64,000 nt of DNA from Thiobacillus sp. (GTDB taxonomy: Bacteria > Pseudomonadota > Gammaproteobacteria > Burkholderiales > Thiobacillaceae), in assembly GCA_021166845.1 (NCBI GenBank), contig JAJPEP010000013.1:1-64000 (forward strand), written 5' to 3'. How positions within the stretch are numbered: position 1 is the first letter of the stretch; each line of letters opens with the position of its first letter. Under the pieces are notes generated by a model. It made no database searches, was not told the DNA's origin, and worked only from the letters and a program-made list of their open reading frames with translations. Shown piece by piece: positions 2,547-37,213 of this stretch. Made by a program: the position numbers and the translations under genes.

Positions 2547-3293
2547 ATGTTCTTTATCCTCAGCACTGGCCGATGCGGTAGCACCTCAATCGAGGACTTT
2601 CTCAACCAGTCTCCAGATTGCCATTGCGTCCATGAGCCCGAACCACAACTTATTTCCGAGGCCACACTGTATGCTTATCGCCAATACGATCATGACAAAC
2701 TGGTGGAACAGCTCAAATCCTCGCGACCTTGTCTTGTTGGAGGAAAACAATACGGTGAGTCACACCCGAAATTGTCTTTCGTGTTTCCCGCACTAAATGA
2801 AGCGTTTCCCACGGCCAAGTATATCTGGCTGCTCCGGGACGGCCGGGATACCGTGTCTTCTTTTCATGCCCGCGGGTGGTATACAGGCTCCAAGGAATTG
2901 CACGAATGGGAGGCCTGGCGAATTCAGGGCGACAAGATAGGTGATTTTTCCCCGAGGGAATGGGCCAATGCCACCCCCTTCGAGAAGTGCTGCTGGTACT
3001 GGACATATGTTAATCGCAGTATCCAGCGCAGCCTTGATAGCGTTGCCGAGCACTCTTTGCGTGTGAGATTGGAAAAACTTCAAGAGTCTTCATCCACTCT
3101 ATTCGGATTCCTCGACTTGAAACCCCCATCTGCACCGACACTAATCACGGCCAACAGAGCCATGCCGCATCATAAACCTTTGAAGTACCCTGACTGGAGC
3201 AAAGATCGGGTGGCAATATTTATGGATTACTGTGGCGCAGCAATGGACGAGTGGTATCCAGGATGGCGTGAAGCCGAATCACCGCGGGCTTAA
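2547..3293 (+). CDS. Sulfotransferase-family protein
   Basis: The 248-residue protein starts with a beta-strand and P-loop-like 5'-phosphosulfate-binding motif, STGRCGSTS (6-14). The second PAPS-contacting motif, RDGRDTVSS, lies at 97-105. Together these place it in the PAPS-dependent sulfotransferase superfamily, which transfers sulfate to hydroxyl or amino groups of sugars and lipids. There is no signal peptide, so it is probably cytoplasmic and acts on a glycan precursor. It follows wzt by 36 bases and precedes a methyltransferase-like gene, which fits a glycan-modifying role. The actual acceptor is unknown. No Shine-Dalgarno is evident. The region is more A+T-rich than the window average. 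Confidence 0.8.
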   Translation: MFFILSTGRCGSTSIEDFLNQSPDCHCVHEPEPQLISEATLYAYRQYDHDKLVEQLKSSRPCLVGGKQYGESHPKLSFVFPALNEAFPTAKYIWLLRDGRDTVSSFHARGWYTGSKELHEWEAWRIQGDKIGDFSPREWANATPFEKCCWYWTYVNRSIQRSLDSVAEHSLRVRLEKLQESSSTLFGFLDLKPPSAPTLITANRAMPHHKPLKYPDWSKDRVAIFMDYCGAAMDEWYPGWREAESPRA

Positions 3294-9540: not shown

Positions 9541-9633
9541 GTGCAAATCCGGGTTGCTCCCTGAAAATGCCCACATCGTCGCCGGTCTAGCCGTCAAACG
9601 AAGTTTAGAGTCAAAACGACCTTGCCAAAAACA

Positions 9634-11502
9634 ATGCATGGCTCCATCTTGAAAAACTTCTGCCCAAGCACTCTTTTTTGTAATGAAAACGAGCCGCTGC
9701 TGCGTCTGATCCGGGGACAGCGAGGTGTCGGTGATTTTGTCGACATGCAGAGTATGCTGGATGCCTTCGAGGATGCTGATTGCCTGTTTCTGCGGGGCTC
9801 AACAGCTTCGCAATTCCGGCTCGATGGCGATTACCGTCTGCAGCGCTGCGCGTCGGGCGGCTGGCTGCTGCACAACCGCGATTCCGCAGGGCCGAGCTAT
9901 TGGCTGCCCATGCCGGCGACGCTGCGACGCATCAGCGCACAAGGTCACATCCTGGAAGAGCGCGCGGCAGATCTGGACGAACTCGATCTGGATACGAGCG
10001 GCGTGAATATATCCTTCGCTTCAATCCCCGAAGGGTGGGCGCTCGATACTGTGATCTGGAAACTCGACGATGCTGCACTCATTGGCGAGTTGATGGCGCT
10101 GGCGCCTGTCGAGACCCAGGGCTGGTTCCTGCTCGGCTCGCACACGCGCTATGGCCAGCCCGCCGATCTGTACCGCCACCTGATCCACGGCTGGGTGTAC
10201 GAAGACCGCTATGCCTGGCCACACAAGCGCCGCATCTGCTCGGAGAACGACGCACATGCGTTGCACTTGATTTTCAGCGGTTTGCAGCGCGCCACCGGCA
10301 AGCGCATTTACGCGCTGCTCAAAGCCCAACTGCTGCTGTCGATACTTTATCGCCAAAGTGAGGACGGGGGCTTCCGTCATGGCGAGTGGACCGACAACAT
10401 GGAGTCGCACTACCGGCTGCACTGTTCGGCCATGCACCTGATGATGGATGCGCTGAGCGAGGATGACGACCCGGTTGTGCGTTCAGCGCTTGCGCACGGC
10501 ATGGCTTTCATTTCCGGCAAGCGCGATGCCACCGAAGTCGGAGCGTGGTTTTATCACGACGAGCTGGAAACGAGCGAGGCCGGGATGCGCCGCGCACCGT
10601 TCAAATGGTGGCCCGGCACGGCCTTGGGCAAGTCGCCGCAGAACATGCTGGTGCTGAATACGCAACTCGACACGCTGGTGGCGCTGGATCGTTACGGGGC
10701 GCTCACCGGAGATACGCAATACGTTCCTTTGGTCGAGTCAGGATACAAGGCGGCTCGTGCGGTGCTGTTACTGCGCCCGATGGAATGGCTTTACCGGCTG
10801 CTGTTTTCCGCCATCGACCTGACCCTGCTGCCAACCGAACAGGCGGCTCGTTTGCCGCTATGGAAACGCCTATGGAAGCGCATCGGCTGGCAGGTATTCA
10901 TCCCACGCTTGCCGCGTATCAAGACCCGTTTTCCGCGCCTGGCCATGCCAGGCGGCTATGTCGACCGCGAACTGAGCTTACAGACCTGGGCGTTCGACTA
11001 TCTGGCTGTGAACCTGATGGATTTAATGCGCGCGGCGAATGGTCCGCGCCGGTCGGATTTCATGCCTTACATTGACGGAATCCTCGAACATTGCACACGC
11101 ACTGGCATTGCGCGCCGCTGGCTGGAACACAAGGGCCGCGCGTATGCCGTCGGGTTTTACGCCGAAGCGCTGGTTTTGCTCAGCCTCGCTGCGCCGCGCC
11201 CCGGGACCGACGCCATGTTGGCCGATGCGCTGCATTTGTGCGTTCGCCAGGGCCTCGGCTTGCCGCCATCGATCAACGGCGGTAATGCCGAAGCGCAAGG
11301 CGCCTCACATCGTGTGCCCCAGCCCGCCCACGCCGATATCATCGTGGCAAATCTCTCTCGTGCTGAACACGCCGCCTGCCTGGTGGTGAATGCCGGGCAG
11401 CACGCCACCAAGCTGGATATCGCGCTGTGTGCCGTGCCAGACGGTTGGACGATCCCTACGGATGAATTGCGGCCGGGCGGCTGGGCACGGATCGAGGCAT
11501 GA
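9634..11502 (+). CDS. Large uncharacterised protein, possible alpha/alpha-toroid enzyme
   Basis: I do not recognise this protein of about 622 residues. No signal peptide or convincing membrane helix is seen. The sequence is rich in amphipathic helices with paired motifs such as ESHYRLHCSAMHLMMDAL, SPQNMLVLNTQLDTLVALDRY and ELSLQTWAFDYLAVNL. This periodicity is like that of (alpha/alpha)6-barrel sugar-processing enzymes (C5-epimerases, unsaturated glycoside hydrolases, heparinase-like lyases). That comparison is inference from pattern, not a family match. The C-terminal 80 residues look like a beta-sandwich. The gene overlaps the next glycosyltransferase by ATGA, so it belongs to the glycan operon. 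The start is uncertain: an in-frame TTG at 9622 precedes the ATG chosen. Confidence 0.6.
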   Translation: MHGSILKNFCPSTLFCNENEPLLRLIRGQRGVGDFVDMQSMLDAFEDADCLFLRGSTASQFRLDGDYRLQRCASGGWLLHNRDSAGPSYWLPMPATLRRISAQGHILEERAADLDELDLDTSGVNISFASIPEGWALDTVIWKLDDAALIGELMALAPVETQGWFLLGSHTRYGQPADLYRHLIHGWVYEDRYAWPHKRRICSENDAHALHLIFSGLQRATGKRIYALLKAQLLLSILYRQSEDGGFRHGEWTDNMESHYRLHCSAMHLMMDALSEDDDPVVRSALAHGMAFISGKRDATEVGAWFYHDELETSEAGMRRAPFKWWPGTALGKSPQNMLVLNTQLDTLVALDRYGALTGDTQYVPLVESGYKAARAVLLLRPMEWLYRLLFSAIDLTLLPTEQAARLPLWKRLWKRIGWQVFIPRLPRIKTRFPRLAMPGGYVDRELSLQTWAFDYLAVNLMDLMRAANGPRRSDFMPYIDGILEHCTRTGIARRWLEHKGRAYAVGFYAEALVLLSLAAPRPGTDAMLADALHLCVRQGLGLPPSINGGNAEAQGASHRVPQPAHADIIVANLSRAEHAACLVVNAGQHATKLDIALCAVPDGWTIPTDELRPGGWARIEA

Positions 11503-14427: not shown

Positions 14428-15345
14428 GTGACCCAACCGTTCATTACCGTTGCGCTATGTACGCATAACCATGCTGACCGGCTGGTGCGCACACTTGCCG
14501 ATCTCGCCCAGTTGAAGTCACCCGTATCGCCCTGGGAATTTCTCGTTATCGACAACGCCAGCACCGACACTACGCCAGCTTTGCTTGCTGCGAGTGACTG
14601 GCGGCTGGCAGGCATGGACATTAGAATCGTGCGCGAGGAAAAGCTCGGGCTGTCCAACGCGCGAAACCGTGCATTGCAGGAAGCGCGCGGCGAATACATC
14701 CTGTTCATGGATGACGATGAAACCCCCGACCCGGCTTGGCTCACCGCATACGAGGAAGCCATGCGCGAACACCATCCTGACGCACTGGGCGGTCGCATTG
14801 AAGTGTTTTTTGAGGATGGTGAACGCCCTGCCTGGCTGCAGGATGAATTGCTGGGATTCCTCGGCAAACTCGATCACGGTGAGGCGCGCTGGCTGACCGA
14901 ACGCACCACACCCATCTTCGGAGGCAATTTCGCTTTCCGTCGGGGTGTGTTCGAGCGCATCGGCAACTTCGACGCGCGGCTGGGCCGACAAGGCGCGGCC
15001 AACATCGGCGGCGAAGACACTGAAATCTACCGCCGGCTGCTCGAACATGAATGCAGGGTTCGCTGGGTGCCGCAAGCCATCATCAATCACCGTATCCAGA
15101 CCCCCAAACTGCGGCGCAACTATTTTCTCGATTTGCATTTCCGCCAGGGCCGCATGGAAGGTGCACGCAAGCGCGGGACAGGCGCACGCATCCCACCGCT
15201 GTATCTTTACCCCCAAGTAGCCCGTGCCTTCGGCCGTGCCCTGGCATTGCGCTTGCGCCAAGGGGATGGCCATTCGCTGAGGCTGGAGATGAACGCCGCG
15301 TATTTCACTGGATATTTGCTGGGCTGGATCAAGGACGCGGCATGA
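14428..15345 (+). CDS. GT2-family glycosyltransferase
   Basis: The 305-residue GT-A enzyme starts at a GTG. It carries TVALCTHNHADRL, VIDNASTD (40-47), a metal-binding DDD (95-97), GGNFAFRRGVFE and GGEDTEIYRRL, the last being the catalytic ED motif of one GT2 branch (also seen in the N-terminal half of the fusion protein at 16426). It lies 15 bases after the deacetylase. Function is sugar addition in the cytoplasm; specificity is unknown. Confidence 0.88.
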   Translation: MTQPFITVALCTHNHADRLVRTLADLAQLKSPVSPWEFLVIDNASTDTTPALLAASDWRLAGMDIRIVREEKLGLSNARNRALQEARGEYILFMDDDETPDPAWLTAYEEAMREHHPDALGGRIEVFFEDGERPAWLQDELLGFLGKLDHGEARWLTERTTPIFGGNFAFRRGVFERIGNFDARLGRQGAANIGGEDTEIYRRLLEHECRVRWVPQAIINHRIQTPKLRRNYFLDLHFRQGRMEGARKRGTGARIPPLYLYPQVARAFGRALALRLRQGDGHSLRLEMNAAYFTGYLLGWIKDAA

Positions 15346-15472: not shown

Positions 15473-16450
15473 ATGACGCTTCCACAACCCAGGGGGCCGG
15501 TTTTCATCGTCGGTGCACCACGTTCCGGCACGACCCTGCTGCAATACATGCTTCGCTCTCACCCGGCGCTCTCCCTGCCGACAGGGGAGTCGCATTTCTT
15601 TATTCCACTCTATCGCAACGCATCGCAATACGGTGATCTGTCGCAAGCCGACAACGTGAGGCGCGTGCTGCTGGCAATGGAAGCCCAAAGTGCGGAATTT
15701 CTCTACACTGACTTGCATGGTTTGCAGTTCGATGTGGAAACCCTGACACGGGAGTTCGTTGGCGAGGGACGCGGCAACATGCGCGACATTATTGGCGGGC
15801 TGTTCGAGAAAAATGCAGCCGGCGAGGGCAAGCCTCGCTGGGGCGACAAAACGCCCTACTACGTCTTGCACCTCCCCAAGCTGCTGGATTGGTGGCCGGA
15901 TGCGCAGGTCATCCATATTGTCCGCGACGGCCGCGATGTGGCTTTGTCGATGTTTGCTCGCCGCCACGATTTTGGCGCCTATAACACTTATCATGCCGCC
16001 CGCGAGTGGGAACACTATGTCGAGACAGGGCATGCCTTGGGCCAGGCAATACCAAAAGGACAATACCTGGAGCTGCGTTATGAAGACATGATCAGCGACC
16101 AGAAAACTGCTTTGCAGACTATTTGTGCATTCCTCGGGGAGTTGTACTCCGACGATCTGCTGGAATACAAAAAAGCCGGCATAGCCGGAAAGACTCCATT
16201 GCTCCAACAATCCATTCAGAAAGACAACCAGGACAAGTGGAAAAACGGAATGACATCCTGGCAGATTCGAATTTTTGAATCTGCTGCGGGATCGACCCTC
16301 AGGAAATTCGGTTACCCCCTGACCACCCCGGCCAAACGCCTGCCTTTACCTTTGCGCGCAATATTCCGCTGGCATCGCACGTTAGCCAAAAGCTGGTATC
16401 GCGCGTTTGGCCCAAAAAAGAAGCCATGGACGCCGCCCTCACACTCCTGA
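15473..16450 (+). CDS. Sulfotransferase-family protein
   Basis: The 325-residue protein has VGAPRSGTTLL (13-23), the 5'-phosphosulfate loop, WGDKTP (123-128), and IVRDGRDVALS (149-159), the 3'-phosphate site. This set is diagnostic of the PAPS-dependent bacterial sulfotransferase group. It has no signal sequence. The gene is preceded by a 127-base gap without a gene, and its last 25 bases overlap the start of the glycosyltransferase/sulfatase-fold fusion in another frame, so the two are probably co-expressed. It is likely to sulfate a sugar residue or a lipid-linked intermediate of this cluster; the acceptor is unproven. Confidence 0.85.
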   Translation: MTLPQPRGPVFIVGAPRSGTTLLQYMLRSHPALSLPTGESHFFIPLYRNASQYGDLSQADNVRRVLLAMEAQSAEFLYTDLHGLQFDVETLTREFVGEGRGNMRDIIGGLFEKNAAGEGKPRWGDKTPYYVLHLPKLLDWWPDAQVIHIVRDGRDVALSMFARRHDFGAYNTYHAAREWEHYVETGHALGQAIPKGQYLELRYEDMISDQKTALQTICAFLGELYSDDLLEYKKAGIAGKTPLLQQSIQKDNQDKWKNGMTSWQIRIFESAAGSTLRKFGYPLTTPAKRLPLPLRAIFRWHRTLAKSWYRAFGPKKKPWTPPSHS

Positions 16451-19400
16451 TCTGTACCCATAACCGGGTCGAATTACTCGAACGAGCGCTGGCTTCGCTC
16501 AATGCTGCAAAACGGCCCGCCATCCCGGTGCAAATCCTGGTGGCCGCGAATGCCTGTAGCGACGATACGGTTGCGAGAATGCAGGCATATCAGTCGCAAC
16601 AGATCGGCCGTGGCTGGCTACCGTTACGGCTGATCGAAGTGCCCACCCCCGGCAAGTCACATGCGCTCAATCGCGCGATCCCGGAAATCGACACCGAACT
16701 CACCGCGTTTGTCGATGACGATCACCGGGTCGATGAAAACTATCTGGTCGCCATCGAACAGGCGGCGCAAACCTGGCCGGATGCCGGACTGTATTGCGGC
16801 CGCATCCTGCCCGACTGGGACGGCAGCGAACCCGAATGGGTGCATGACAATGGGCCCTACCGGATTTATCCGCTTCCCATTCCGCGCTACGACCAGGCGG
16901 ACCAGCCCAAGACGATCACCGCCGAGGAAGGGCCCATCCCCGGCGGCGGCAATCTGGTGGTCCGCCGTCACGTATTTGAACTGGCCGGGGAGTTCTCCAC
17001 CGAACTGGGGCCGCACGGGCATGATCTGGGCGGCGGCGAGGACAGCGAATATGTGCTGCGCGCCATGAATCGCGGCGTGCGATGCCAATATACCCCGGAC
17101 ATGGTGCAGCACCATTACGTCGACAGCGAGCGGCTCCGGCTCGGTTATCTGCTGAAAAAAAGCTATCAGCGCACCCGCTCCACTTCACGCATTCACGGCA
17201 ACGGCCGGGTGCCGCTTTTCATGTGGCGCAAGCTTGCTGAATATGGGTTTCACAGCCTGTTCAGCCTGTCATGGGCCAGGCGCCGCTTCTACTGGATGCG
17301 GACAGCCGCCGCATTGGGCGAGGTCCAGGGGCGCCGTGAATCAGGTTTTCGTGGGCGAGGACTCGCCCTCCCCCCGGACCGCGGCATGCTGGGCGTTGAG
17401 GTCCTGGCACTGCTCGCCGGCGCCAGCGGCCTCATCGCCTGGATTGTCGCCGGCGACGCGCGCTGGGCCGGCATCCTGCCCGCACTAGGCGTCGCCGGCG
17501 TGGGGGCCGCAGCGTTGCTCGCCAAATCGCTGCTCGATTTTTCCCAGACCGGGCCGCGCATGCGCGAGGAAGTGCTCACCCATTACCGGCGCCACACCCT
17601 GTTTGCACTGGCACGCCTGACCGCCTGGGCGTTCGCGCTGATGCTGTTCACCGGCGGCGCGGGGGTGTTGCTGTACTTCATGCTCAACACCGTGCTCGGC
17701 GCGCCGTGGTCGACGGGCCTGGCCTTCATTGCCGCCATCCTGGGCGTGCTGGGCGCGTTCTCGCTGCAATTCATCCGCAAGCTGCGCTTCAACCCCGGCC
17801 TGCTGGTGGCATCGATGCACTACCGCATGAGCCGGCTGTACAGACTCTGGCAGTGGATGACCCCTGCCTTCATCACGGCCCTGCAATGGAGCGCCATGGG
17901 CCTGGTCGGACTGCTGTTCGCGGCCGCCAGCTGGCAGTTGTCGAAGGAGGGGCGTATCGGCGACCTGATGGCGCTGTGGGCTGCCATGCTGTTTGTTGCA
18001 GGAACCATCGCCTGGGCAGGCTGGCAGCCGCAGGCGCGCGCGCCGCGCAAACAGCCGGTGCGCGCAGCCGATGCGCCGCCCAACATCCTGATGATCGGCT
18101 CCGACACGCTGCGTGCCGACCGGCTGGGCGCGCTGGGCTACCATCGCGCGCTGACGCCGAACATCGATGCGCTGGCCGCGGCCGGTGCCCTGTTTGCCAA
18201 CTGCTACGTGCCATGCGCGCGTACCGCCCCCAGCCTGATCTCGATGCTGACCGGCACCTGGCCACATACCCACGGCGTTCGCGACAATTTCGTCAATGAT
18301 GAGGACACGCGGCTGAAGGTGGATGCCCTGCCCACGCTGCTGAAACAGGGGGGCTATCGCACCGCTGCGCTGTCGGACTGGTGCGGTAGCGACATGGGAA
18401 AGTTTTCCTTCGGTTTTGATTACACCGACCTGCCGGAAGACCAATGGAACCTGAAGTACCTGATTCGCCAGGGCCCCAAGGACCTGCGCCTGTACCTGTC
18501 CCTGTTCACCCACAACCGGCTGGGACGGCTGCTGCTGCCCGAGCTGTACTATCTGGGCGGGGTGCCGCTGACGCAGCCTATGGGCCGCCGCGCGCGGCGG
18601 CTGGTGTCGCGCCTGGCGGAAAACCCACAGCCGTTTTTTCTGAACGTGTTCTATTCCACCACTCACCCGCCGTTTGCATCGGAATGGCCGTGGTACACGC
18701 GCTTTGCCGACCCGAGGTATGCGGGCGAATCCAAGTTCGCCATGGCGCGGCTCACCGACCCGTTCGATATCATCCGCCGCCAGGGCGCGCCCAGGAAAGA
18801 ATTCGACCTCGATCAGATCATCGATCTGTACGACGGCTGCGTGGCGGAGTTCGACGACGAAGTGGGCAAGATGCTGGCCCATCTTGAAACCTGCGGCCTG
18901 GCCGGCAACACCATCGTCGTCGTCTATTCCGATCACGGCATGGAGTTTTTCGAGCACGACACCTGGGGCCAGGGCAACTCGGCCGTCGGCGAAGCCAGCC
19001 CGCGCATCCCGCTGGTGATCCGCGATCCGCGCCTGCCCGCCAAGGGAAAAACAGACCAGGTGGTGCGCTCGATCGACCTGGCGCCCACCCTGCTGGAACT
19101 CGCCGGCCAGCCATCGGCCACGGCAATGGACGGGGTATCGCTTGCGGAATGCCTGACGGGGAACCATGCCTGTCCCGAACTCGACGCCTTCAACGAAACC
19201 GGAATCTGGATCGCCGACATTCCCGGCCTGCCCGACGATCACCAGCGCTACCCGGATTTGCTGGAACTCATGGAAGCACCCGACCGTGCCAGCGGCACCC
19301 TGGCGATCAAGCCCGAATACTGCGAAGCCATCCTCGTTGCCAAAGACCGCATGATCCGGCGCGGCCGCTGGAAACTGGTGTATCAACCGCTGGAAACAGG

Positions 19401-19602
19401 CCACGCGCTCCAGTTGTTCGATCTGGCAAGCGACCCCGCCTGCATGCACAACGTCCTCGCCCAACAAGCCGAAATCGCCCAATCCCTGTGGCAGCAGCTC
19501 GGCGAGTGGATAAAACGGGAAGAGCGTGTGTCCACTCTCGGCGGCCAAATGCATCTATATACAGAAGATGCTCCGAATATCCGTCGTCATCCCCACGCAT
19601 AA
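16426..19602 (+). CDS. GT2 glycosyltransferase - membrane - sulfatase-fold fusion protein
   Basis: The 1058-residue protein joins two enzyme types. Residues 1-300 are a GT2 domain (TLLICTHNR at 6-14, DDDH at 97-100, GGGEDSEYVLR at 202-212). Residues about 322-535 hold five to six hydrophobic segments. Residues about 552-1035 are an alkaline-phosphatase/sulfatase-superfamily domain (NILMIGSDTLRAD at 553-565, LTGTWPHTHGV at 608-618, YSDHGMEFF at 834-842). The formylglycine site of true sulfatases (C/S-x-P-S-R) reads T600-A-P-S-L604 here, so a formylglycine nucleophile cannot form. A threonine could serve as in phosphoethanolamine or phosphoglycerol transferases. If the helices place the C-terminal domain outside, it would modify a glycan in the periplasm. 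The start overlaps the sulfotransferase by 25 bases. Confidence 0.88.
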   Translation: MDAALTLLICTHNRVELLERALASLNAAKRPAIPVQILVAANACSDDTVARMQAYQSQQIGRGWLPLRLIEVPTPGKSHALNRAIPEIDTELTAFVDDDHRVDENYLVAIEQAAQTWPDAGLYCGRILPDWDGSEPEWVHDNGPYRIYPLPIPRYDQADQPKTITAEEGPIPGGGNLVVRRHVFELAGEFSTELGPHGHDLGGGEDSEYVLRAMNRGVRCQYTPDMVQHHYVDSERLRLGYLLKKSYQRTRSTSRIHGNGRVPLFMWRKLAEYGFHSLFSLSWARRRFYWMRTAAALGEVQGRRESGFRGRGLALPPDRGMLGVEVLALLAGASGLIAWIVAGDARWAGILPALGVAGVGAAALLAKSLLDFSQTGPRMREEVLTHYRRHTLFALARLTAWAFALMLFTGGAGVLLYFMLNTVLGAPWSTGLAFIAAILGVLGAFSLQFIRKLRFNPGLLVASMHYRMSRLYRLWQWMTPAFITALQWSAMGLVGLLFAAASWQLSKEGRIGDLMALWAAMLFVAGTIAWAGWQPQARAPRKQPVRAADAPPNILMIGSDTLRADRLGALGYHRALTPNIDALAAAGALFANCYVPCARTAPSLISMLTGTWPHTHGVRDNFVNDEDTRLKVDALPTLLKQGGYRTAALSDWCGSDMGKFSFGFDYTDLPEDQWNLKYLIRQGPKDLRLYLSLFTHNRLGRLLLPELYYLGGVPLTQPMGRRARRLVSRLAENPQPFFLNVFYSTTHPPFASEWPWYTRFADPRYAGESKFAMARLTDPFDIIRRQGAPRKEFDLDQIIDLYDGCVAEFDDEVGKMLAHLETCGLAGNTIVVVYSDHGMEFFEHDTWGQGNSAVGEASPRIPLVIRDPRLPAKGKTDQVVRSIDLAPTLLELAGQPSATAMDGVSLAECLTGNHACPELDAFNETGIWIADIPGLPDDHQRYPDLLELMEAPDRASGTLAIKPEYCEAILVAKDRMIRRGRWKLVYQPLETGHALQLFDLASDPACMHNVLAQQAEIAQSLWQQLGEWIKREERVSTLGGQMHLYTEDAPNIRRHPHA

Positions 19603-21358: not shown

Positions 21359-22096
21359 TCAATCAGGACAGAATCGGCAGTAAGGATTGGTCGGCGAGCC
21401 GATTGGGGGTTCGGCGACGGGCTCTACCGGCGCAAGCGGAGCTATGGTTGGGCTTGCTGCAGACTCAACCGAACTTGGGATGGGGGTAGGCGGCTCTTCC
21501 AGTTTTGCGGCCTCGGCTTCGATGGCCGGCTTTGGTTCGATGGGCTCGGGATACGGCAGCTTGCCGCCCAATTCCGTGTAGCGGCGTTTTAGCCCTCTTG
21601 AGTCAGGATGGCGTCGCATACCTTCAGTGGCCATTTCTAATGCCTTTGCCTTGTTGTTTATCTCCATATAATGGTCTGCCAATGCTTGATACGCATCTGG
21701 AGAACCAACTTCATAACGAAGTGCTTTGTTGAATTCGGCAACAGCTTCAGCTTTTTTTCCCAGTAATTTCAAGGCCCGTGCCTTGTTAACGTGTACCTCA
21801 CCACGCATGACGTAATCTTCCTTGGTATGACTCAACACGTAATCAAAGTTATTGATGGCCACACCTAATTTATAATTCATGTCCGACTTATTACCCATAG
21901 CGGAATAGGCTCGATTCAGAAAACGCAGGCCAGAGCAATAGTGGTGCATGTGCATTGTGTTTTCGTCACGTTCTCCCAGCCGGGAATAAACCCGGGCTTG
22001 GCACATTTCCGCCTCAGCCGGAGTCGGTGCAAACGGCTCTACTGCCCAAGCAGGCATGGCTGTCAGCAGCAGCGCCCCGATCAAGTAATTCTTCAT
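21359..22096 (-). CDS. Exported TPR protein with proline-rich C-terminus
   Basis: The 245-residue protein has a signal peptide (residues 1-18, ending PAWA), then helices that look like about three tetratricopeptide repeats (roughly 70-165, e.g. HVNKARALKLLGKKAEAVAEFNKAL and AYQALADHYMEINNKAKAL). A linker rich in P, E and A follows (about 180-235), and the protein ends in NPYCRFCPD, a CxxC tail. TPR proteins mediate protein contacts; an envelope scaffold for glycan assembly is possible. Its ATG overlaps the stop of the upstream GT4 gene, so it is the last gene of the minus-strand operon. The DNA is more A+T-rich than its neighbours. I do not recognise a named family. Confidence 0.7.
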   Translation of the reverse strand: MKNYLIGALLLTAMPAWAVEPFAPTPAEAEMCQARVYSRLGERDENTMHMHHYCSGLRFLNRAYSAMGNKSDMNYKLGVAINNFDYVLSHTKEDYVMRGEVHVNKARALKLLGKKAEAVAEFNKALRYEVGSPDAYQALADHYMEINNKAKALEMATEGMRRHPDSRGLKRRYTELGGKLPYPEPIEPKPAIEAEAAKLEEPPTPIPSSVESAASPTIAPLAPVEPVAEPPIGSPTNPYCRFCPD

Positions 22097-23256
22097 GTTT
22101 TGTCACTCCTCGTCATTTTTTGGGATAGGGCAAGCGTCTTTTTCGCTACCCTTTCCCATGCAAATTCCATCTGTACGCGCTTCCAGCCGCTTTGCCCAAT
22201 TTTCATAGCGTCATCTTTTTCAGACAGCAATCGGGTCAAACCAATTGCCACGGTCTCGACCGAGGCGCCGTCCACCCTGAGTCCAGTCTGCTCATGCAGC
22301 ACCGCCGACCCGGTTCCGCCCGCCTCTCCAGCCAGGCTGGGCTTGCCACAGGCCGCCGCTTCGATGAACACCATGCCGAAGCCTTCGTTGTCGCCGTTGA
22401 TGTCGCGGTTGGGCATGGCCAAAACATCGCAGGCATTCATCCAGCGCGGCAGGTCGGCCTCGCTCACGGCGCCTATGCGATGAACGATGCCTTGTGCATT
22501 ATGTTCCGCGACCAGGCCGTCGAGATAGTCCGCATCTTCACCGATGCCGGCGATGACGTAGCGCAGCGGGGTGCCTTCGGCGCGTAATTTCGCGACGGCG
22601 CGGATCACCTGGTCGAAGCCCTTGCGGCGCGACAGGCGTCCGACCGAGAAGACCAGTTTTTCATCGGGGCGGATGCCGAGGCTTTCGCGCAGACCCGTGG
22701 TGTCGAGGCCTGGGCGGAAGACCGACACGTCGACGCCCGGGTAGATGATGGTGATATGCGCCGGATCGATGCCCATTTCCAGCAATGTGTCGCGCGTATG
22801 CTCGCTGTTGGCGACCACCCTGTCGGCATGGCGCAGGGCGAAGCGCATGGCCTTGAATTTTCCGCCGCGTCCCCACGTGGTGAGTTCCTCTCCATGCGCA
22901 TAGATCGCCACCGGACGAAACGTCAGCCGCGCCACGGCCCATGCGACCAGGCCTTCGGGCAGGGCGCGGAAGGCGTGGATGGCATCGAAGCGGTGGGTGA
23001 GCGCCAGCGCCAGCGACTTGAAGAAGAAGCGCGCGTACATCGCCAGGGACTCGGGGCGCAGCCAGGGGATGCGCTTGAGGTCGAGGCGGTGGATGGCATT
23101 TGGATGCGCCGCGTCGACCGCGTCCGCACCCGGCACGTCGGCGGTGACGATGTGGATTTCCTTGCCGCCCAGGCGCTTGTAGACCTCGGCTGCCCACACG
23201 GCGGTGCCGCCCTTGGTGGGGAGGAAGAGCTCAGTGAGGACGAGCAGGCGGTTCAT
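22093..23256 (-). CDS. GT4-family glycosyltransferase
   Basis: The 387-residue GT-B enzyme begins LLVLTELFLPTKGGTAVWA (acceptor loop). It has VFSVGRLSRRKGFDQVI at the start of the donor domain and NEGFGMVFIEAAACGKP as the EX7E donor motif, followed by GEAGGTGSAV. It belongs to the mannosyl/glucosyl transferase-like part of GT4, but the donor is unknown. It lies 92 bases downstream of a GT2 gene and overlaps the TPR gene by four bases. Confidence 0.9.
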   Translation of the reverse strand: MNRLLVLTELFLPTKGGTAVWAAEVYKRLGGKEIHIVTADVPGADAVDAAHPNAIHRLDLKRIPWLRPESLAMYARFFFKSLALALTHRFDAIHAFRALPEGLVAWAVARLTFRPVAIYAHGEELTTWGRGGKFKAMRFALRHADRVVANSEHTRDTLLEMGIDPAHITIIYPGVDVSVFRPGLDTTGLRESLGIRPDEKLVFSVGRLSRRKGFDQVIRAVAKLRAEGTPLRYVIAGIGEDADYLDGLVAEHNAQGIVHRIGAVSEADLPRWMNACDVLAMPNRDINGDNEGFGMVFIEAAACGKPSLAGEAGGTGSAVLHEQTGLRVDGASVETVAIGLTRLLSEKDDAMKIGQSGWKRVQMEFAWERVAKKTLALSQKMTRSDKT

Positions 23257-23348: not shown

Positions 23349-24275
23349 TCACCCCCTGATCATCGAGAGGATGTCGCGCAGGGCTCGCCAATTGGGGCGC
23401 ACGGTTATGGCGGGCAGCACGGCCTTGACTGCGGCGATGCGCTGGCCGTTTTTGCTCAAGGCGCAGCCGAGGTTGTAACGGGCGCTTTGCATCCTATCCG
23501 CCACGCCCTGCCGGACCGGCGACGGAAAGTTCTTCGCCAGCCGGGAAAGGTCGATCAGCGTACGCACGTTCTCGCGTTGCGCCGCCACCGGGTCGCGGCG
23601 GGTGGCGCTGCCGCCGTGGATCACGTAGACGCCGAGGCTCTGGCAGACCACGCCGATGCGGCGGCTCTTCGCCACCAGCCGGGTCAGAAAGTGCACGTCT
23701 TCGCACACCTTGTAGCCAATGGGGTAGCCGCCCAGCTCGATGAAGCGCGCGCGCGGCACCGACAGCGTGTGGGTGTCGCCGAAGTGGTCGGCGACGAAGG
23801 CGGCGATCTCGGCGGGGGTTTCGATCACCACCCGCGCCGCGCCCCCAGCCTTGTTCAGCATCGTGCGGCCCGACTCGTGCTGCGCCATCGAGGTGCCGAG
23901 CAGGGCGCCGGCTTCGTCGCGGTATTCGTAATCGCCGGTCAGGCAATCGAGCGCCGCGTCCTCGGCGATCCACTCGGCATGCAGCTTGATGCGGTCGGGG
24001 GCATACCAGTCGTCGGCGTCGAGAAACGCCAGCCAGTCGCCGGTTGCGGCTGCCGCGCCGGCGTTGCGGGCGACCGAGACGCCGCTGTTTTTTTGCCGGA
24101 TCAGGCGCACGCCGTCGAAGCCGGCCGCGATTTCCGCGGTGGCATCGGTCGAGCCGTCGTCTACGACGATGATTTCGTGCGCCGGCCAGTTTTGCGCGCG
24201 CACCGATTCGATGGCGCGCGCCAGCGTGGCGGCGGAATTGAAGGCGGGGATGACGACCGAGAAGCGCGGGTTCAT
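23349..24275 (-). CDS. GT2-family glycosyltransferase
   Basis: The 308-residue GT-A protein shows FSVVIPAFNSAATL, VVDDGSTDA (37-45) and DADD (86-89). Its ATG overlaps the stop of the deacetylase-like gene upstream (ATGA), which couples the two. It has no membrane helices. It is a cytoplasmic sugar transferase for the product of this minus-strand operon; specificity is unknown. Confidence 0.89.
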   Translation of the reverse strand: MNPRFSVVIPAFNSAATLARAIESVRAQNWPAHEIIVVDDGSTDATAEIAAGFDGVRLIRQKNSGVSVARNAGAAAATGDWLAFLDADDWYAPDRIKLHAEWIAEDAALDCLTGDYEYRDEAGALLGTSMAQHESGRTMLNKAGGAARVVIETPAEIAAFVADHFGDTHTLSVPRARFIELGGYPIGYKVCEDVHFLTRLVAKSRRIGVVCQSLGVYVIHGGSATRRDPVAAQRENVRTLIDLSRLAKNFPSPVRQGVADRMQSARYNLGCALSKNGQRIAAVKAVLPAITVRPNWRALRDILSMIRG

Positions 24276-25576: not shown

Positions 25577-26494
25577 TCAATACCCCATCCTCGCCGCCAC
25601 ATCCGCCACCCGCGGCAGCACGCGCTCGATCTTTTCCCGGTTGCGGCCGTCTTTCCATTTGTCCAGGCGGATTTCGGAGAAGGCGTTGTAGGGGATGTCG
25701 AGCACTTCGGCGCAGTGCGCCTGCAAGCGGGCGTCGAATGCCAGGCCACAGCCTTCGAATACCTGGCGAAAGGTGGCCGCCGGGTCGCGCAGGAAGTCCT
25801 CGTAGAACACATCGACCCATTGCCCGACGGGCACGCTTGCCTTCGCGTCGAGGATGGCCTGGTTGATGGCGGCGTACTGGAAGGCGGCGACGTCTTCGAC
25901 CGGCGCATTCACATACCCGCGCCAGCCGTCGGCGAGGAAGAAGCACCACTTGGTCAGGGCGCCGTTTTCCACCGCCACCGTCGCCGGCAGGTCGTTCGAC
26001 CAGGTGGCGAATTCGTCAGGCTTGCGCCAGCCTTCGATCAGCGAATTGAGGTTGTCGCCCGGGCTGCGCTTGACGAAGACGAACACGGCATCGGGAAACA
26101 GCGCCTGCAGATAGGGCACGCACAGGCCGTTCTGGTTGTTCTTGTCGATCCAGCGATGCAGCCCGGTCCAGCTGTAGAAATAACGGCTGACGGTGTCGCG
26201 ATCCGCCGGACTGGCGTCGCCGGCATCCAGCGCATGGGTGTCCCAACGCTTGTCGGCCGGCGGATGCAGGTCGGTCCAGTAATCGTGGGTTTCGCGCTGC
26301 AGGCTGCCGATCTCGTGCGATTCGGACAGGGTCTTGTAGACCAGCGTGGTGCCGGCGCGCGAGCAGCCGACCACGATGATCGGGCGCTGCGCAGGTCGCC
26401 GCGCAAGCGCCCAGCGCAAACTGCGCACGCCACGTTGAGCGCGCCGCGCATGGTAGGCCAGTGTTTTGCTTACTTTGATCAGGAATTCATTCAA
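25577..26494 (-). CDS. Sulfotransferase-family protein
   Basis: The 305-residue protein has IIVVGCSRAGTTLVY (39-53), the phosphosulfate loop of sulfotransferases. VFVKRSPGDNLNSL further on stands in place of the usual R-D-x-R-D...S site, so the 3'-phosphate site is altered (K-R-S-P-G-D-N-L-N-S). It is a member of the sulfotransferase superfamily, but PAPS use is less certain than for the copies at 15473 and 31746. It appears to be the first gene of the operon that runs down to 21359. The 339 bases upstream are mostly repeats. Confidence 0.75.
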   Translation of the reverse strand: MNEFLIKVSKTLAYHARRAQRGVRSLRWALARRPAQRPIIVVGCSRAGTTLVYKTLSESHEIGSLQRETHDYWTDLHPPADKRWDTHALDAGDASPADRDTVSRYFYSWTGLHRWIDKNNQNGLCVPYLQALFPDAVFVFVKRSPGDNLNSLIEGWRKPDEFATWSNDLPATVAVENGALTKWCFFLADGWRGYVNAPVEDVAAFQYAAINQAILDAKASVPVGQWVDVFYEDFLRDPAATFRQVFEGCGLAFDARLQAHCAEVLDIPYNAFSEIRLDKWKDGRNREKIERVLPRVADVAARMGY

Positions 26495-26560: not shown

Positions 26561-26718
26561 GATTTAACCCGGATTGTTTATTGGGGCGCGAGATGCTGCT
26601 TGGCGTAGGGTGCACTCCGTGCACCTTCGGGCAATCGGTGCACGGAGTGCACCCTACGCGCTACAAATTGCCTAATGAACAATCCCGGTTTAACTCGATT
26701 CCGGCAGGCCGGAATGAC
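26561..26718. repeat. MITE-like nested inverted repeat in a 339-base intergenic region
   Basis: Between the divergent genes at 26494 and 26834 lies a perfect 23-bp inverted repeat (26603-26625 and 26637-26659, GCGTAGGGTGCACTCC... and its complement, 11-base loop). It is enclosed by an imperfect outer inverted repeat: TTAACCCGGATTGTTTATT near 26563-26581 against AATGAACAATCCCGGTTTAA near 26673-26692. A further palindrome, GATTCCGGC-AG-GCCGGAATGAC, abuts it at 26697-26718. The nesting of terminal and internal palindromes without coding capacity is what small non-autonomous transposable elements look like. The rest of the gap (26719-26833) shows no gene and presumably holds the promoter of the next gene. 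Confidence 0.7.
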
Positions 26719-26833
26719 GAAATCATCGGTGCCGCATCGCGAACTCAACATAACGCAACATACAGGTTTCGTGCCAAGCGGCAGGCTCGTTTATATTGGT
26801 AGATTATCCTGTATCACTCTGGCACACGACACC

Positions 26834-28660
26834 ATGGATGGCATTTTTGGCTGGCTGGGCGACCACGGCGCGCATCAGGACTTGATCAAGCATATGGGGC
26901 AGGCGGCACGCCCATCTTCAGAAGGGCTGCGGCACGAGCACAGCAGCCAGATGCTGGGGGTAGCGGCCTGCTCGCGCTTTGGCAAGGCCGAAATCCACGT
27001 GGAGAACGGGCTGGCTGCGGCGCTGCACGGGCGACCGCGCTTTCTCGATGCGGATCTGGCCTTCATTGCCCGCGACCAGAATCCGGCCATGGCAGTGGCG
27101 CGCGGCTGGGTCCGCTTCGGCGAAGTACTGCCCACGCTGATGCAGGGCAACTTCGCTTTTGCCGTGCTTGAACCATTGAAGAAAAAAGCCTTTCTGGCGC
27201 TCGACCGCGTCGGCGCCGAACGCCTGTGTTACGCCAAGCACGGCGACCAGCTGGTGTTCGGAAGCAGCGTGCAAAGCGTGGCGGCCCACCCCGCCGTCGG
27301 CCCCGTCATCGACCCGCAGGCGATCTACGACTATCTCTATTTTCATACCATTCCCGCGCCGCGCAGCCTGTATCAGAGCGTACACAAGCTGCTGCCCGGG
27401 CAAGCCCTCACCCTGAAAAACGGCCAGCTCGTTGCCGCGTTTTACTGGCAGGCGGACTACACCCCGGTCGATGCCGGCTTCGACCCCCTCCGCCGCGATT
27501 TCCGCAACCTGCTGGAGCAGGCGGTGCGCGATGCCGATGCGCCGGCCACCGCGGCGTTTCTTTCCGGCGGCACCGATAGCTCGACCATCGTCGGCGCCCT
27601 CACGGCCGCGCGGGGCGCGCCGGTCAACACCTTTTCCATCGGCTTCGACGCCGACGGCTTCGACGAAATGGAATACGCGCGCTGCGCCGCCGAGCGCTAC
27701 GGCAGCCGCAGCCACGAGTATTACCTGAAGCCGGCCGACATCGCGACCGCGATTCCCATCATCGCGCGCGAATACGACGAGCCCTTCGGCAACGACTCGG
27801 CGGCGCCGACCTATTTCTGCGCCAGGGCCGCGCGCGAGGCGGGATTCGAGAACATGCTCGCCGGCGACGGCGGCGATGAAATATTCGGCGGCAATGCGCG
27901 CTACGCCAAGCAGCGCCTGTTCGAGGCCTATGCCCGCCTGCCCGCCGTGCTGCGGCGCGGGCTGATCGAGCCGGTTGCAAACGCGCCGGGGCTGTCGAAC
28001 CGATTTCCGCTGTCCAAGCTGAAAAGCTATGTCGCCCAGGCCCATGTCAGGCTGCCGCTGCGACTGGAAAGCTACAACTTCCTGCACCGCACCCCGCTCG
28101 ACCAGATATTTGCGGCGGATTTCATTCGTGCCGTCGACCCCTCCTCGACGGATGCCGCTCTCAACGAAGTCTACGCCCGCACCAGCTCCGACCATTACAT
28201 CAACCGCCTGATGCACCTGGACCTGAAGTTCACCCTGGCCGACAACGACCTGCGCAAGGTCGGCGCCATGACGGAAGCGGCTGGAATCGAGGTGCATTAC
28301 CCCCTGCTCGACGACCGCCTGGTGGCGTTTGCCAATCATCTGCCGGTGGACTACAAGGTGCGCGGGCAAAAGCTGCGCTGGTTCTTCAAGAAGGCCCTGG
28401 ACGACCTGCTGCCGGAAAAGATCATCAACAAGAGCAAGCACGGCTTCGGGTTGCCGTTCGGCGTGTGGAGCACGCAATACGCTCCGCTCGGCGACCTCGT
28501 CGGCGACAGCCTGTCGGACTTCAAGAAGCGCGGCTTGATCCAGCCGGCGTATCTGGACCACATGCTGGCCATGCAGCGCGGCCAGCATGCAAGTTATTAC
28601 GGGGTGATGATCTGGGTGGTGATGATGCTGGAGCAGTGGCTGACGGCGAACGAGCACTGA
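26834..28660 (+). CDS. Asparagine-synthetase-like amidotransferase lacking the glutaminase cysteine
   Basis: The 608-residue protein has the two-domain layout of AsnB-type enzymes: an N-terminal Ntn-hydrolase-like domain (1-190) and a C-terminal ATP-pyrophosphatase domain with the PP-loop SGGTDSS (244-250). The expected Met-Cys-Gly-Ile start reads Met-Asp-Gly-Ile, and the NGEIYN glutamine-binding motif is replaced by HGRPRF. Glutamine hydrolysis should therefore be lost. The synthetase half looks intact (DNDLRKVG and HYPLLDDRLV present). Such enzymes may use ammonia or form other amide bonds, for example on sugar acids. The open frame extends upstream, but family similarity begins at this ATG. 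It stands alone on the plus strand between two minus-strand operons. Confidence 0.88.
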   Translation: MDGIFGWLGDHGAHQDLIKHMGQAARPSSEGLRHEHSSQMLGVAACSRFGKAEIHVENGLAAALHGRPRFLDADLAFIARDQNPAMAVARGWVRFGEVLPTLMQGNFAFAVLEPLKKKAFLALDRVGAERLCYAKHGDQLVFGSSVQSVAAHPAVGPVIDPQAIYDYLYFHTIPAPRSLYQSVHKLLPGQALTLKNGQLVAAFYWQADYTPVDAGFDPLRRDFRNLLEQAVRDADAPATAAFLSGGTDSSTIVGALTAARGAPVNTFSIGFDADGFDEMEYARCAAERYGSRSHEYYLKPADIATAIPIIAREYDEPFGNDSAAPTYFCARAAREAGFENMLAGDGGDEIFGGNARYAKQRLFEAYARLPAVLRRGLIEPVANAPGLSNRFPLSKLKSYVAQAHVRLPLRLESYNFLHRTPLDQIFAADFIRAVDPSSTDAALNEVYARTSSDHYINRLMHLDLKFTLADNDLRKVGAMTEAAGIEVHYPLLDDRLVAFANHLPVDYKVRGQKLRWFFKKALDDLLPEKIINKSKHGFGLPFGVWSTQYAPLGDLVGDSLSDFKKRGLIQPAYLDHMLAMQRGQHASYYGVMIWVVMMLEQWLTANEH

Positions 28661-35208: not shown

Positions 35209-37128
35209 TCATGCTGCCTGCCGCTCCGTTTCGTCCATACCCAACACCTGGCCGAGGAAGGCGTCGAACATCAGCACGGTCCACAGGATCACCGAATAAT
35301 CGCGGCGGCCGGACTGGTGGGCCTCGACCACTTCGCGCAGGAAATCCTGGTTGAACATGCCGGTGGATGCCAGCCGTTCGCCCAGCACCACGTTGCGGAT
35401 GACGGCGGCCAGCGGGCCGCGGAACCACGCGGCGAGCGGTACCGAAAAGCCCATTTTCCTGCGGTACAGCACGTCGTTCGGCAGATAGGGTTCCATCGCC
35501 TTTTTCAGCAGGTATTTGCCTTCTGTGCCGCGCAGCTTGAGATCGACCGGCAGACCGGAGACCCAGCCCGTCAGCTCATGATCGAGCAGCGGCTCGCGCA
35601 CTTCGAGCGCGTGCGCCATGCTGGCGCGATCGACCTTGGTGAGGATGTCGCCGACCAGGTAGGTTTTGATGTCGAGATACTGCACCAGTGACAGCGGGTC
35701 GTCGGTGGGCGCCACCGCAGCGTGGCGGCGCAGCACCTCCACCGCCTGGTAGCCCTGTAGTTCGCGCGTAAAGGCCGGCGAGAACAGCTGCCGGCGCTGC
35801 GCGTCGGACAGGAGCGAGACGCCGTGAAAATAGCCTTCGACGGTGTCGCGCGCCAGCGACTCGAAGGTGGTCTTGGCACGGAATACCTTGGGCGCCCAGT
35901 CGGCCTTGGGATAGAGCTTGCCGAGCGTGCCGAACAGCGGACGGCGCAGCGCCAGCGGCATCACCGCGCGCATCCGTTCCTCGTAGCGGAACCAGCGATA
36001 GCGTCGGTAGCCGGCGAAATGCTCGTCGCCGCCGTCACCCGACAGTGCAACCTTGACGTGCTTGCGCGCCAGTTCGCACACCCGGTAGGTCGGCAGCGCG
36101 GATGAATCGGCGTAGGGCTCGTCGTACACGCCGGCAAGCTTGTCGACCAGGCTGAAGTCGTTGGAGGCGACGGTCTCGACGTGGTGATTCGTCTTGTAGC
36201 GGTCGGCGACCCGCCGGGCGAATTCGATTTCATTGAAGGCCGGGGCGTCGAAGCCGATCGAGCAAGTGTTCACCGGCGTGGCCGACTGCGTCGCCATCAG
36301 CGCCACCACCGCGCTGGAATCGACGCCGCCCGACAGGAACGCGCCCAGCGGCACGTCGGCAATCATGCGCAGGCGGATCGATTCCTGCATGCGCTCGACC
36401 AGCTCGTCCATCGCGCCGGCCTCATCCGTAACCTTTACCGGGGTGAACGGCATGTCCCAGTACTGCTTCGGCAGCGCGCGCGCCTCGCCGCGCTTGAGGG
36501 TGAGCGTGAATCCCGGCGGCAGCTTGCAGGCGCGCTTGAAAATGGTGCGCGGCTCGGGCACGTAGCCGTAGGCGAAATACTCCTCGACCGCCAGCGGATC
36601 GATGTCGCGCGCCAGGCCGGGATGCATCATCAGCGACTTCAGCTCGGAACCGAAAATGAATTCTCCGGTGTCGAGGAAGGCGTAATACAGCGGCTTGACA
36701 CCGAAGCGGTCGCGCACCACGAACAGGGTTTCCTGCTTGCGGTCCCACAGCACAAACGCGAACATGCCGCGAAAGCGCGCGACGCAGGCTTCGCCCCAGG
36801 CTTCCCAGGCATGGACGATGACTTCGGTATCGGAATGGGTGCGGAAGGTGTGGCCGAGCGCCTCGAGTTCGGGCACCAGTTCCTGGAAGTTGTAGATTTC
36901 GCCGTTGAACACGACGACGACGCTGCCGTCCTCGTTGAACAGCGGTTGCTGGCCGCTGGACAGGTCGATGATCGACAGGCGCCGGTGCCCCAGCCCCAAC
37001 CCCGGCTCCAGATGCAGGCCGCCCTCGTCGGGACCGCGGTGAAACTGGCTCTCGTTCATGCGATGCAACAGTTCGCGTGAAATCTCGTCCACGCCGCGGG
37101 TATCGAAAATGCCGGTTATGCCGCACAT
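35209..37128 (-). CDS. Asparagine synthetase (glutamine-hydrolysing), exosortase A system type
   Basis: The 639-residue protein has an intact glutaminase domain: the nucleophile Cys2 in MCGITGIF, RRLSIID (49-55), NGEIYN (75-80) and THSDTEV (98-104). The synthetase domain has the PP-loop SGGVDSS (266-272). It would transfer ammonia to an AMP-activated carboxylate; in this family, asparagine formation or amidation of a sugar acid in the exopolysaccharide are both possible. Members of this form accompany exosortase A. The frame continues upstream to 37449, but the Met-Cys start fixes the gene. Compare the cysteine-less paralogue at 26834. Confidence 0.92.
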   Translation of the reverse strand: MCGITGIFDTRGVDEISRELLHRMNESQFHRGPDEGGLHLEPGLGLGHRRLSIIDLSSGQQPLFNEDGSVVVVFNGEIYNFQELVPELEALGHTFRTHSDTEVIVHAWEAWGEACVARFRGMFAFVLWDRKQETLFVVRDRFGVKPLYYAFLDTGEFIFGSELKSLMMHPGLARDIDPLAVEEYFAYGYVPEPRTIFKRACKLPPGFTLTLKRGEARALPKQYWDMPFTPVKVTDEAGAMDELVERMQESIRLRMIADVPLGAFLSGGVDSSAVVALMATQSATPVNTCSIGFDAPAFNEIEFARRVADRYKTNHHVETVASNDFSLVDKLAGVYDEPYADSSALPTYRVCELARKHVKVALSGDGGDEHFAGYRRYRWFRYEERMRAVMPLALRRPLFGTLGKLYPKADWAPKVFRAKTTFESLARDTVEGYFHGVSLLSDAQRRQLFSPAFTRELQGYQAVEVLRRHAAVAPTDDPLSLVQYLDIKTYLVGDILTKVDRASMAHALEVREPLLDHELTGWVSGLPVDLKLRGTEGKYLLKKAMEPYLPNDVLYRRKMGFSVPLAAWFRGPLAAVIRNVVLGERLASTGMFNQDFLREVVEAHQSGRRDYSVILWTVLMFDAFLGQVLGMDETERQAA

Positions 37129-37213
37129 GGGATCGGGTCTGGGTGAGATTGCATGGGCGCCCGCAAGGGGGTGGTCGTGTCGATATCCCGGTTCAATCGA
37201 TGGCTCGCCGTCG

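Follow-up and report, generated by a model that had tools for sequence, protein, structure and literature searches.

A conserved glycosyltransferase–sulfatase-fold fusion with threonine at the formylglycine position in XrtA-associated exopolysaccharide clusters

The first 64,000 nucleotides of contig JAJPEP010000013.1 of a Thiobacillus sp. (assembly GCA_021166845.1) – the whole stretch analysed here, hereafter the window – encode a protein of 1058 residues in which a family 2 glycosyltransferase (GT2) domain is joined, through a predicted membrane region, to a domain of the sulfatase fold. This fusion defines a conserved family and belongs to the exopolysaccharide cluster associated with exosortase A (XrtA). 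As to function, the reading we prefer, and on whose truth we are evenly divided, is that of a bifunctional inner-membrane enzyme, both of its catalytic domains lying in the cytoplasm, that uses a threonine to transfer or hydrolyse a phospho group on a lipid-linked glycan. The features on which the argument turns are as follows.

16426-19602, plus strand: the fusion of GT2 domain, six-helix membrane region and sulfatase-fold domain (1058 residues, ATG start)
16444-16896, plus strand: GT2 catalytic domain, residues 7-157 (Pfam PF00535), with D97-D99 and, further on, E205-D206 conserved
17380-18021, plus strand: six predicted membrane helices, residues 319-341, 345-370, 381-424, 430-455, 480-507 and 511-532 (AlphaFold2 secondary structure and hydropathy)
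18079-19107, plus strand: sulfatase-fold domain (PF00884), residues 552-894, family conservation extending to about residue 1035
18103-18105, plus strand: D560, predicted metal ligand (alignments)
18223-18237, plus strand: T600-A-P-S-L604, with threonine at the place of the formylglycine cysteine or serine and leucine at the place of the arginine
18427-18576, plus strand: conserved stretch, residues 668-717 (DQWN...RQGPKD...; alignment and AlphaFold2 models)
18664-18666, plus strand: H747, active-site histidine (alignments)
18931-18936, plus strand: D836-H837, predicted metal ligands (alignments)

That one reading frame holds both domains, as the original prediction had it, is borne out by a Pfam scan: PF00535 scored 44.6 bits against a cut-off of 23.3 (PF13641 matched too) and PF00884, Sulfatase, 161.8 bits against 25 (with further matches to PF01663 and PF16347). 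A metal motif of the Asp-x-Asp type, as expected of GT2 glycosyltransferases, is present: D97 occurs in 71 of the 71 aligned rows with a letter there, and D98 and D99 in 66, the remaining five being proteins with an alternative glycosyltransferase (see below). In the other half the motifs SDTLRAD, TAPSL and DHGME begin at residues 559, 600 and 836. The start codon agrees with the relatives, whose alignments begin at residues 1-5. A chimeric reading frame or assembly error is ruled out, since the full-length fusion recurs in eight further genomes of the 300 sampled from the order and in 65 of 80 loci from named genomes; a plasmid-borne gene is rejected as well, a plasmid collection giving no match at E 1e-30.

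These counts come from two samples. In the order sample of 300 genomes (G numbers) a family carrier is any genome with the membrane-sulfatase half; the search of named genomes gave 210 candidate stretches, 152 of which encoded relatives, and the best 80 of the 152 (L numbers) supply the locus counts used throughout. The samples overlap, G167 and L033, G014 and L081, and G286 and L088, for example, being the same records. Fourteen order genomes are carriers: nine, our own included, have the full-length fusion (that of G243 contains two in-frame TGA codons), G088 and G201 have the glycosyltransferase and membrane-sulfatase halves as separate genes, G206 has a membrane-sulfatase reading frame without a fused glycosyltransferase, and in G045 and G266 the gene is cut by contig ends. 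G129, a good match in the glycosyltransferase half only, is counted outside the 14. The best 80 loci comprise 65 complete fusions, two pairs of adjacent separate genes (L104 and L106, broken between residues 306 and 344-351), five proteins with a different glycosyltransferase, and eight that are incomplete, frame-broken or masked. They come from Thiobacillus, Candidatus Nitrotoga, Sulfuricella, Sulfuriferula, Thauera, Aromatoleum, Methylophilaceae, Chromatiaceae and Cellvibrionales; named carriers include Thiobacillus thioparus DSM 505, Thauera aminoaromatica S2 and Aromatoleum, and the closest named relative is a Thiobacillus metagenome-assembled genome (95% identical). Among 398 genomes of the phylum, searched at E 1e-20, there was no additional family member beyond our own genome, and 15 others matched in the sulfatase part at 26-35% identity. 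In searches of the open PubMed Central (PMC) literature, no paper on a glycosyltransferase–sulfatase fusion was among the matches listed.

Linkage to XrtA is evident both across genomes and within contigs. The window itself carries the exosortase gene, 19.5 kb from the fusion:

39052-39825, minus strand: exosortase A (XrtA), TIGR03109, 367.1 bits against a cut-off of 208

Ten other gene kinds of the XrtA type are above their NCBIfam cut-offs in the window (TIGR03097, 03088, 03087, 03019, 03006, 03015, 03016, 03018, 03108 and 04063). Exosortase A is above cut-off in 14 of the 14 carriers against 59 of the 286 other order genomes (73 of 300 in all), and the family was found in none of the 227 order genomes that have no above-cut-off exosortase A; the Fisher probability of 9e-10 overstates this linkage because the genomes are related. 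In 10 of the 14 carriers the family gene and exosortase A share a contig, with 16.7 to 26.6 kb between them. Sought in other XrtA genomes, as had been suggested, the fusion does recur there.

A critical issue is what the sulfatase-fold domain does. In S1 sulfatases the formylglycine position holds a cysteine or serine, with x-P-x-R after it. That signature is absent here, just as had been noted from the window alone: T600-A-P-S-L604 stands in its place, and threonine is found in every row of a 73-row alignment (the window, 65 fusions, two separate and five alternative-glycosyltransferase proteins; the eight incomplete, frame-broken or masked loci left out). D560, T600, D651, W652, K659, H747, D836, H837, E843, W847, Q849 and N851 are invariant in 73 of 73 rows, although this conservation is partly enforced, the spans D651-W652 to K659 and D836-H837-G838 to E843 being written into the search seeds. 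In the 13 rows from the genome search, which used no peptide seeds, T600, D651, W652, K659, H747, D836, H837, W847, Q849 and N851 show no variation either, nor does D560 in any row that extends over it (L015 does not). The 15 outside relatives that the phylum search yielded share D560, H747 and D836 (15 of 15) and mostly H837 (12 of 15), and have cysteine at position 600 in 14, arginine at 604 in 14, and lysine at 651 in 13 and at 849 in 12. The family has thus replaced the cysteine by T600, the arginine by L604, and the lysines at 651 and 849 – which, from the alignment, we take to be the two active-site lysines of sulfatases – by D651 and Q849. With its cysteine, arginine and both lysines replaced, the sulfatase site is lost, and an active sulfatase is ruled out. 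A Thr-type sulfatase-fold protein also exists outside the family: that of L117 (1213-3231 of its locus, minus strand), the only one of the 15 outside relatives with threonine.

What remains resembles a different kind of site. Aligned by hhalign with an LtaS-like protein of the same genome, D560, T600, H747 and D836-H837 pair with E, T, H and D-H. In Listeria LtaS (PMC4192460), Glu-263, Asp-481, His-482 and phospho-Thr-307 bind the metal and His-422 helps to bind phosphate; the EptA ligands (PMC10525099) are Glu240, Thr280, Asp452 and His453. To judge by its residues, then, the site would work most like that of LtaS or EptA, with aspartate in place of glutamate, on a sulfatase frame.

AlphaFold2 modelled the full-length protein with a mean predicted local distance difference test (pLDDT) score of 84.6 and a predicted template modelling (pTM) score of 0.76 from a 61-row alignment (the window and 60 of 63 non-redundant references, L056, L072 and L102 being left out and two X-containing sequences having been dropped earlier), and the isolated domain with a mean pLDDT of 78.8 and a pTM of 0.85 from 38 of 59 rows. 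Foldseek matches numbered 1200 and 793 respectively (E up to 10), and the best 50 of each set consist of sulfatases, phosphonate monoester hydrolases and a sulfamidase. A plain EptA or LtaS homologue is ruled out by the ranking of sequence matches, and neither enzyme is among those best 50 folds of either set. The likeness to EptA and LtaS that was first proposed therefore holds for the metal site, which aligns with the LtaS-like protein, and not for overall sequence and fold, in which sulfatases and phosphonate monoester hydrolases are the closer relatives; the chemistry proposed with it, threonine-based phospho-transfer or a phosphodiesterase, remains the likeliest.

Within that chemistry, the best-surviving alternative is a cytoplasmic phosphohydrolase or diphosphatase that strips a phosphate-containing group from a lipid-linked glycan or nucleotide, or releases it, in proofreading or control of chain length. 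The PF01663 match (type I phosphodiesterase / nucleotide pyrophosphatase; 7e-15, best stretch 555-629) points this way, as do the phosphonate monoester hydrolases among the nearest folds and the fact that the best solved relatives are hydrolases. However, it is a transferase, LtaS, that combines a threonine nucleophile with a single metal set of this kind, and we think a hydrolase of this kind rather unlikely, though deserving of serious attention.

The second critical issue is where the domain lies. Of the 66 fusions (the window and 65 others), hydropathy assigns six helices to 65, and the AlphaFold2 secondary structure gives six as well. Close to the helix ends, the mean number of lysines plus arginines is 17.2 on the glycosyltransferase side against 2.46 on the opposite side, in the same direction in all 65 six-helix rows, a contrast that is in part an effect of length (see below). 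By segment, the means are 4.8 (296-320), 3.8 (369-394), 4.8 (451-480) and 4.0 (532-551) on the glycosyltransferase side, and 0.8 (343-347), 0.3 (421-430) and 1.3 (503-510) in the opposite loops. Loop 451-480 is net positive in 66 of 66 fusions, and the linker just ahead of the sulfatase domain (532-551) is basic, with a mean of 4.03 and a net positive charge in 57 of 66. As a control, the LtaS-like protein of the same genome gave 11 against 3, N-in/C-out as expected. In the alternative-glycosyltransferase proteins the sulfatase domain is on the lysine- and arginine-rich side in five of five (18 to 2, 17 to 2, 17 to 2, 21 to 4 and 24 to 8), although these are called with 7, 7, 7, 8 and 9 helices. 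The separate membrane-sulfatase proteins align with the fusion from helix 2 on; two of them, L104 (3 against 13) and L106 (0 against 8), lack the first fusion helix, are called with five helices each and are read as N-out/C-in. If that is right, the one extra crossing of the fusion, at the junction, keeps the glycosyltransferase cytoplasmic. An even number of helices, together with a glycosyltransferase that is cytoplasmic as its family requires, puts the sulfatase domain in the cytoplasm too, where both domains are thus predicted to lie; the two halves would then probably act on a single polysaccharide at a single site, one building it and the other modifying it.

Several points weigh against the enzyme that we propose. 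This same-side topology is a prediction that rests on hydropathy and charge, and the charge contrast is partly a length effect because the opposite-side loops are short, of 5, 10 and 8 residues only; per residue, the lysine and arginine content of 343-347 and 503-510 is close to that of the inside segments. One fusion, L103, is called with seven helices and counts of 10 against 8. The separate proteins are not all of one mind: L016 is even (8 against 8), L012 gives 3 against 4 where the helix caller failed, and L013, where it failed too and called four helices, gives 2 against 6, a literal reading of which places the domain outside. In the site, D560 is aspartate where LtaS and EptA carry glutamate. 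Moreover, we know of no activity for any member of the family.

Some of these points favour an alternative in which the sulfatase domain is periplasmic and the glycosyltransferase cytoplasmic, in the manner of EptA and LtaS, and in which one hydrophobic segment out of the six does not cross the membrane. LtaS, EptA and YejM are described as membrane-anchored with catalytic domains outside the cytoplasm, and the even count of L016 and the poor call of L013 leave room for this arrangement. The Thr-type protein of L117 also speaks for it: its hydrophobic N-terminal helices (five predicted) give N-in/C-out with 12 against 6, the opposite of what is predicted for the family. Set against this are the near-uniform call of six helices, the charge difference and the basic linker, and we consider a periplasmic domain improbable. 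The original prediction had made the domain probably periplasmic, with sugar added inside and the chain decorated or released outside; neither claim is supported, a placement of both domains on one side – the very outcome named as counting against it – being what we now predict.

Comparison of the two AlphaFold2 models bears on how the halves fit together. For residues 668-717 the isolated-domain model has block pLDDT values of 38-57, while the full-length model reaches 81-93 over 671-720; the unequal depth of the two alignments, 38 and 61 rows, counts against the comparison. Low confidence in isolation and high confidence at full length suggest that this stretch may pack on the membrane or glycosyltransferase part. 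The apparent dependence of its folding on the remainder of the protein, together with the loss of several sulfatase residues, could also be taken to mean that the domain is non-catalytic, a docking scaffold for the glycosyltransferase and the neighbouring sulfotransferase; but the metal ligands, the nucleophile and H747 persist in 73 of 73 rows, end branches with more than two changes per column included, and we give a scaffold very little credence.

The mechanism that we propose for a cytoplasmic, threonine-based enzyme has two steps, and both its chemistry and the substrate shared by the two halves are what we infer. In the first, as expected of the GT2 family, the glycosyltransferase domain would add a sugar to a polyprenyl-diphosphate-linked glycan. 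In the second, to go by the site, a divalent metal on D560, D836 and H837 would activate T600, which would attack a phosphorus centre to form a phospho-threonine intermediate; the phospho group would then pass to the new lipid-linked glycan, or to water, ahead of flipping or export. Candidate donors within reach at the cytoplasmic face are the head groups of inner-leaflet phospholipids and cytidine diphosphate (CDP)-alcohols. If true, a Thr-site family joined to a glycosyltransferase on the cytoplasmic side would couple phospho-decoration of a glycan to the addition of sugar before export; LtaS and EptA, in contrast, are known as enzymes that act outside the cytoplasm. It would also provide, in named strains, a handle on the make-up of the XrtA/PEP-CTERM polysaccharides.

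The membrane-sulfatase half is not always found with the same partner. In L070, L074, L075, L079 and L086 a different glycosyltransferase precedes a membrane-sulfatase half that is 72-85% identical to that of the window; Pfam confirmed a GT2 in both of those scanned, L075 and L070. Compared with the usual glycosyltransferase, that of L075 scores no better than E 0.47, which is not significant; with the other four alternatives it shares 70-91% identity. On a tree of the membrane-sulfatase half (56 of the 73 rows, 17 deep or long-branch rows having been removed) the five loci fall in four places, requiring four changes, at least three of them forced by supported branches; a single clade of the five, a group named after the sequences had been seen, is rejected by the approximately unbiased test (p-AU 5e-54). 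We read this as repeated exchange of the glycosyltransferase, probably through recombination where the two halves meet, ahead of helix 1. It is possible, though we lean against it, that the Thr-type transferase of the alkaline-phosphatase superfamily is a fixed decoration module at the cytoplasmic face, ahead of which glycosyltransferases are swapped by recombination, the same modification being placed on whatever sugar a strain adds. Nature has thereby provided an experiment, in the form of different glycosyltransferase halves, that bears on which part of the protein sets the substrate.

The fusion is embedded in a recurrent set of genes. Immediately upstream in the window are:

14428-15345, plus strand: GT2 gene, a recurrent upstream neighbour whose label is found in 66 of 80 loci
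15473-16450, plus strand: sulfotransferase (PF13469), its end overlapping the start of the fusion by 25 bases

Neighbours were counted in the best 80 loci, over at most 8 kb on each side, many loci being cut by contig ends; labels are best BLAST hits, and those of paralogous glycosyltransferases are approximate. Homologues were found of the tetratricopeptide repeat (TPR) gene in 68 loci, of the family 4 glycosyltransferase gene (22093-23256) in 66, of the 24272-25465 gene in 54, of the GT2 gene at 23349-24275 and of the sulfotransferase at 25577-26494 in 52 each, and of an asparagine-synthase-like gene in 38. From these recurrent neighbours it follows that the fusion regularly belongs to one kind of exopolysaccharide cluster. 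It is not tied to one sulfotransferase, the label of 15473-16450 appearing in only 22 of 80 loci. We think it highly improbable that the domain acts on sulfate with no formylglycine, removing or handing on the groups placed by the adjacent sulfotransferase. In 20 of 80 loci the closest labelled gene upstream is a homologue of that sulfotransferase gene, and one stands just upstream of the separate glycosyltransferase gene in the deep split form L106, but the two sulfatase-site lysines have become aspartate and glutamine, and the label was missing from 58 of the 80 loci, though contig ends truncate many.

Other features of the window deserve mention. It holds three Sulfotransfer_3 genes (2547-3293, 15473-16450 and 25577-26494), which suggest that its polysaccharide is sulfated; bacterial sulfated extracellular polysaccharides were reported from cyanobacteria only, according to a 2021 paper (PMC8205485). 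Genes for an ABC-2 permease and a Wzt-like ATPase lie at 391-2510, and the guanine-plus-cytosine fraction is 0.515-0.58 over 1-10 kb against 0.557-0.694 beyond; this is possibly an acquired export module. The TPR protein (21359-22096, minus strand) ends in NPYCRFCPD, and its relatives in L012 and L013 have NPWCRFC and NPFCRFC near their C-termini. One protein of 626 residues (9622-11502, plus strand) matches nothing in Pfam or NCBIfam at E 0.01 and has relatives in four of the 80 loci. Of two asparagine-synthase-like proteins, that at 35209-37449 is above the XrtA amidotransferase cut-off (1131.8 bits) and that at 26675-28660 below it (291.6 against 816.9).

How, then, does the fusion stand to known systems? 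By sequence and fold its domain is nearest to the S1 sulfatases and the phosphonate monoester hydrolases (PF00884; 6hhm, 7lha, 4uph and 2vqr), with which it has its fold and best sequence matches in common, along with the D560, H747, D836 and, mostly, H837 shared by the outside relatives. It differs from them in T600, L604, D651 and Q849, in its membrane anchor and in its fusion to a glycosyltransferase; phosphonate monoester hydrolases use a formylglycine nucleophile, where here T600 is found. The glycosyltransferase domain matches GT2 exopolysaccharide glycosyltransferases of the HpsE/EpsD type, below the cut-offs of those models, which have 307 and 325 positions and no sulfatase part; the HpsE match spans only residues 5-244. 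With LtaS the fusion shares a threonine nucleophile, an Asp-His metal pair, a further active-site histidine and a membrane anchor, but LtaS has glutamate as its first ligand where D560 stands here, and here a glycosyltransferase is fused and the domain is predicted to be cytoplasmic; in sequence the domain is nearer to sulfatases (E 2.8e-05 for the LtaS model against 4.3e-39 for an arylsulfatase model). The EptA/MCR phosphoethanolamine transferases likewise have a threonine nucleophile, one acidic ligand and an Asp-His pair (PMC10525099), but EptA has five helices, a periplasmic catalytic domain and Glu240, against six predicted helices, a predicted cytoplasmic domain and aspartate in the fusion. 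EptA also has a second zinc site, with His383 and His465, and both LtaS and EptA take the phospho head group that they transfer from a phospholipid. From LtaS, EptA, S1 sulfatases and phosphonate monoester hydrolases alike, the fusion departs in at least one tested feature.

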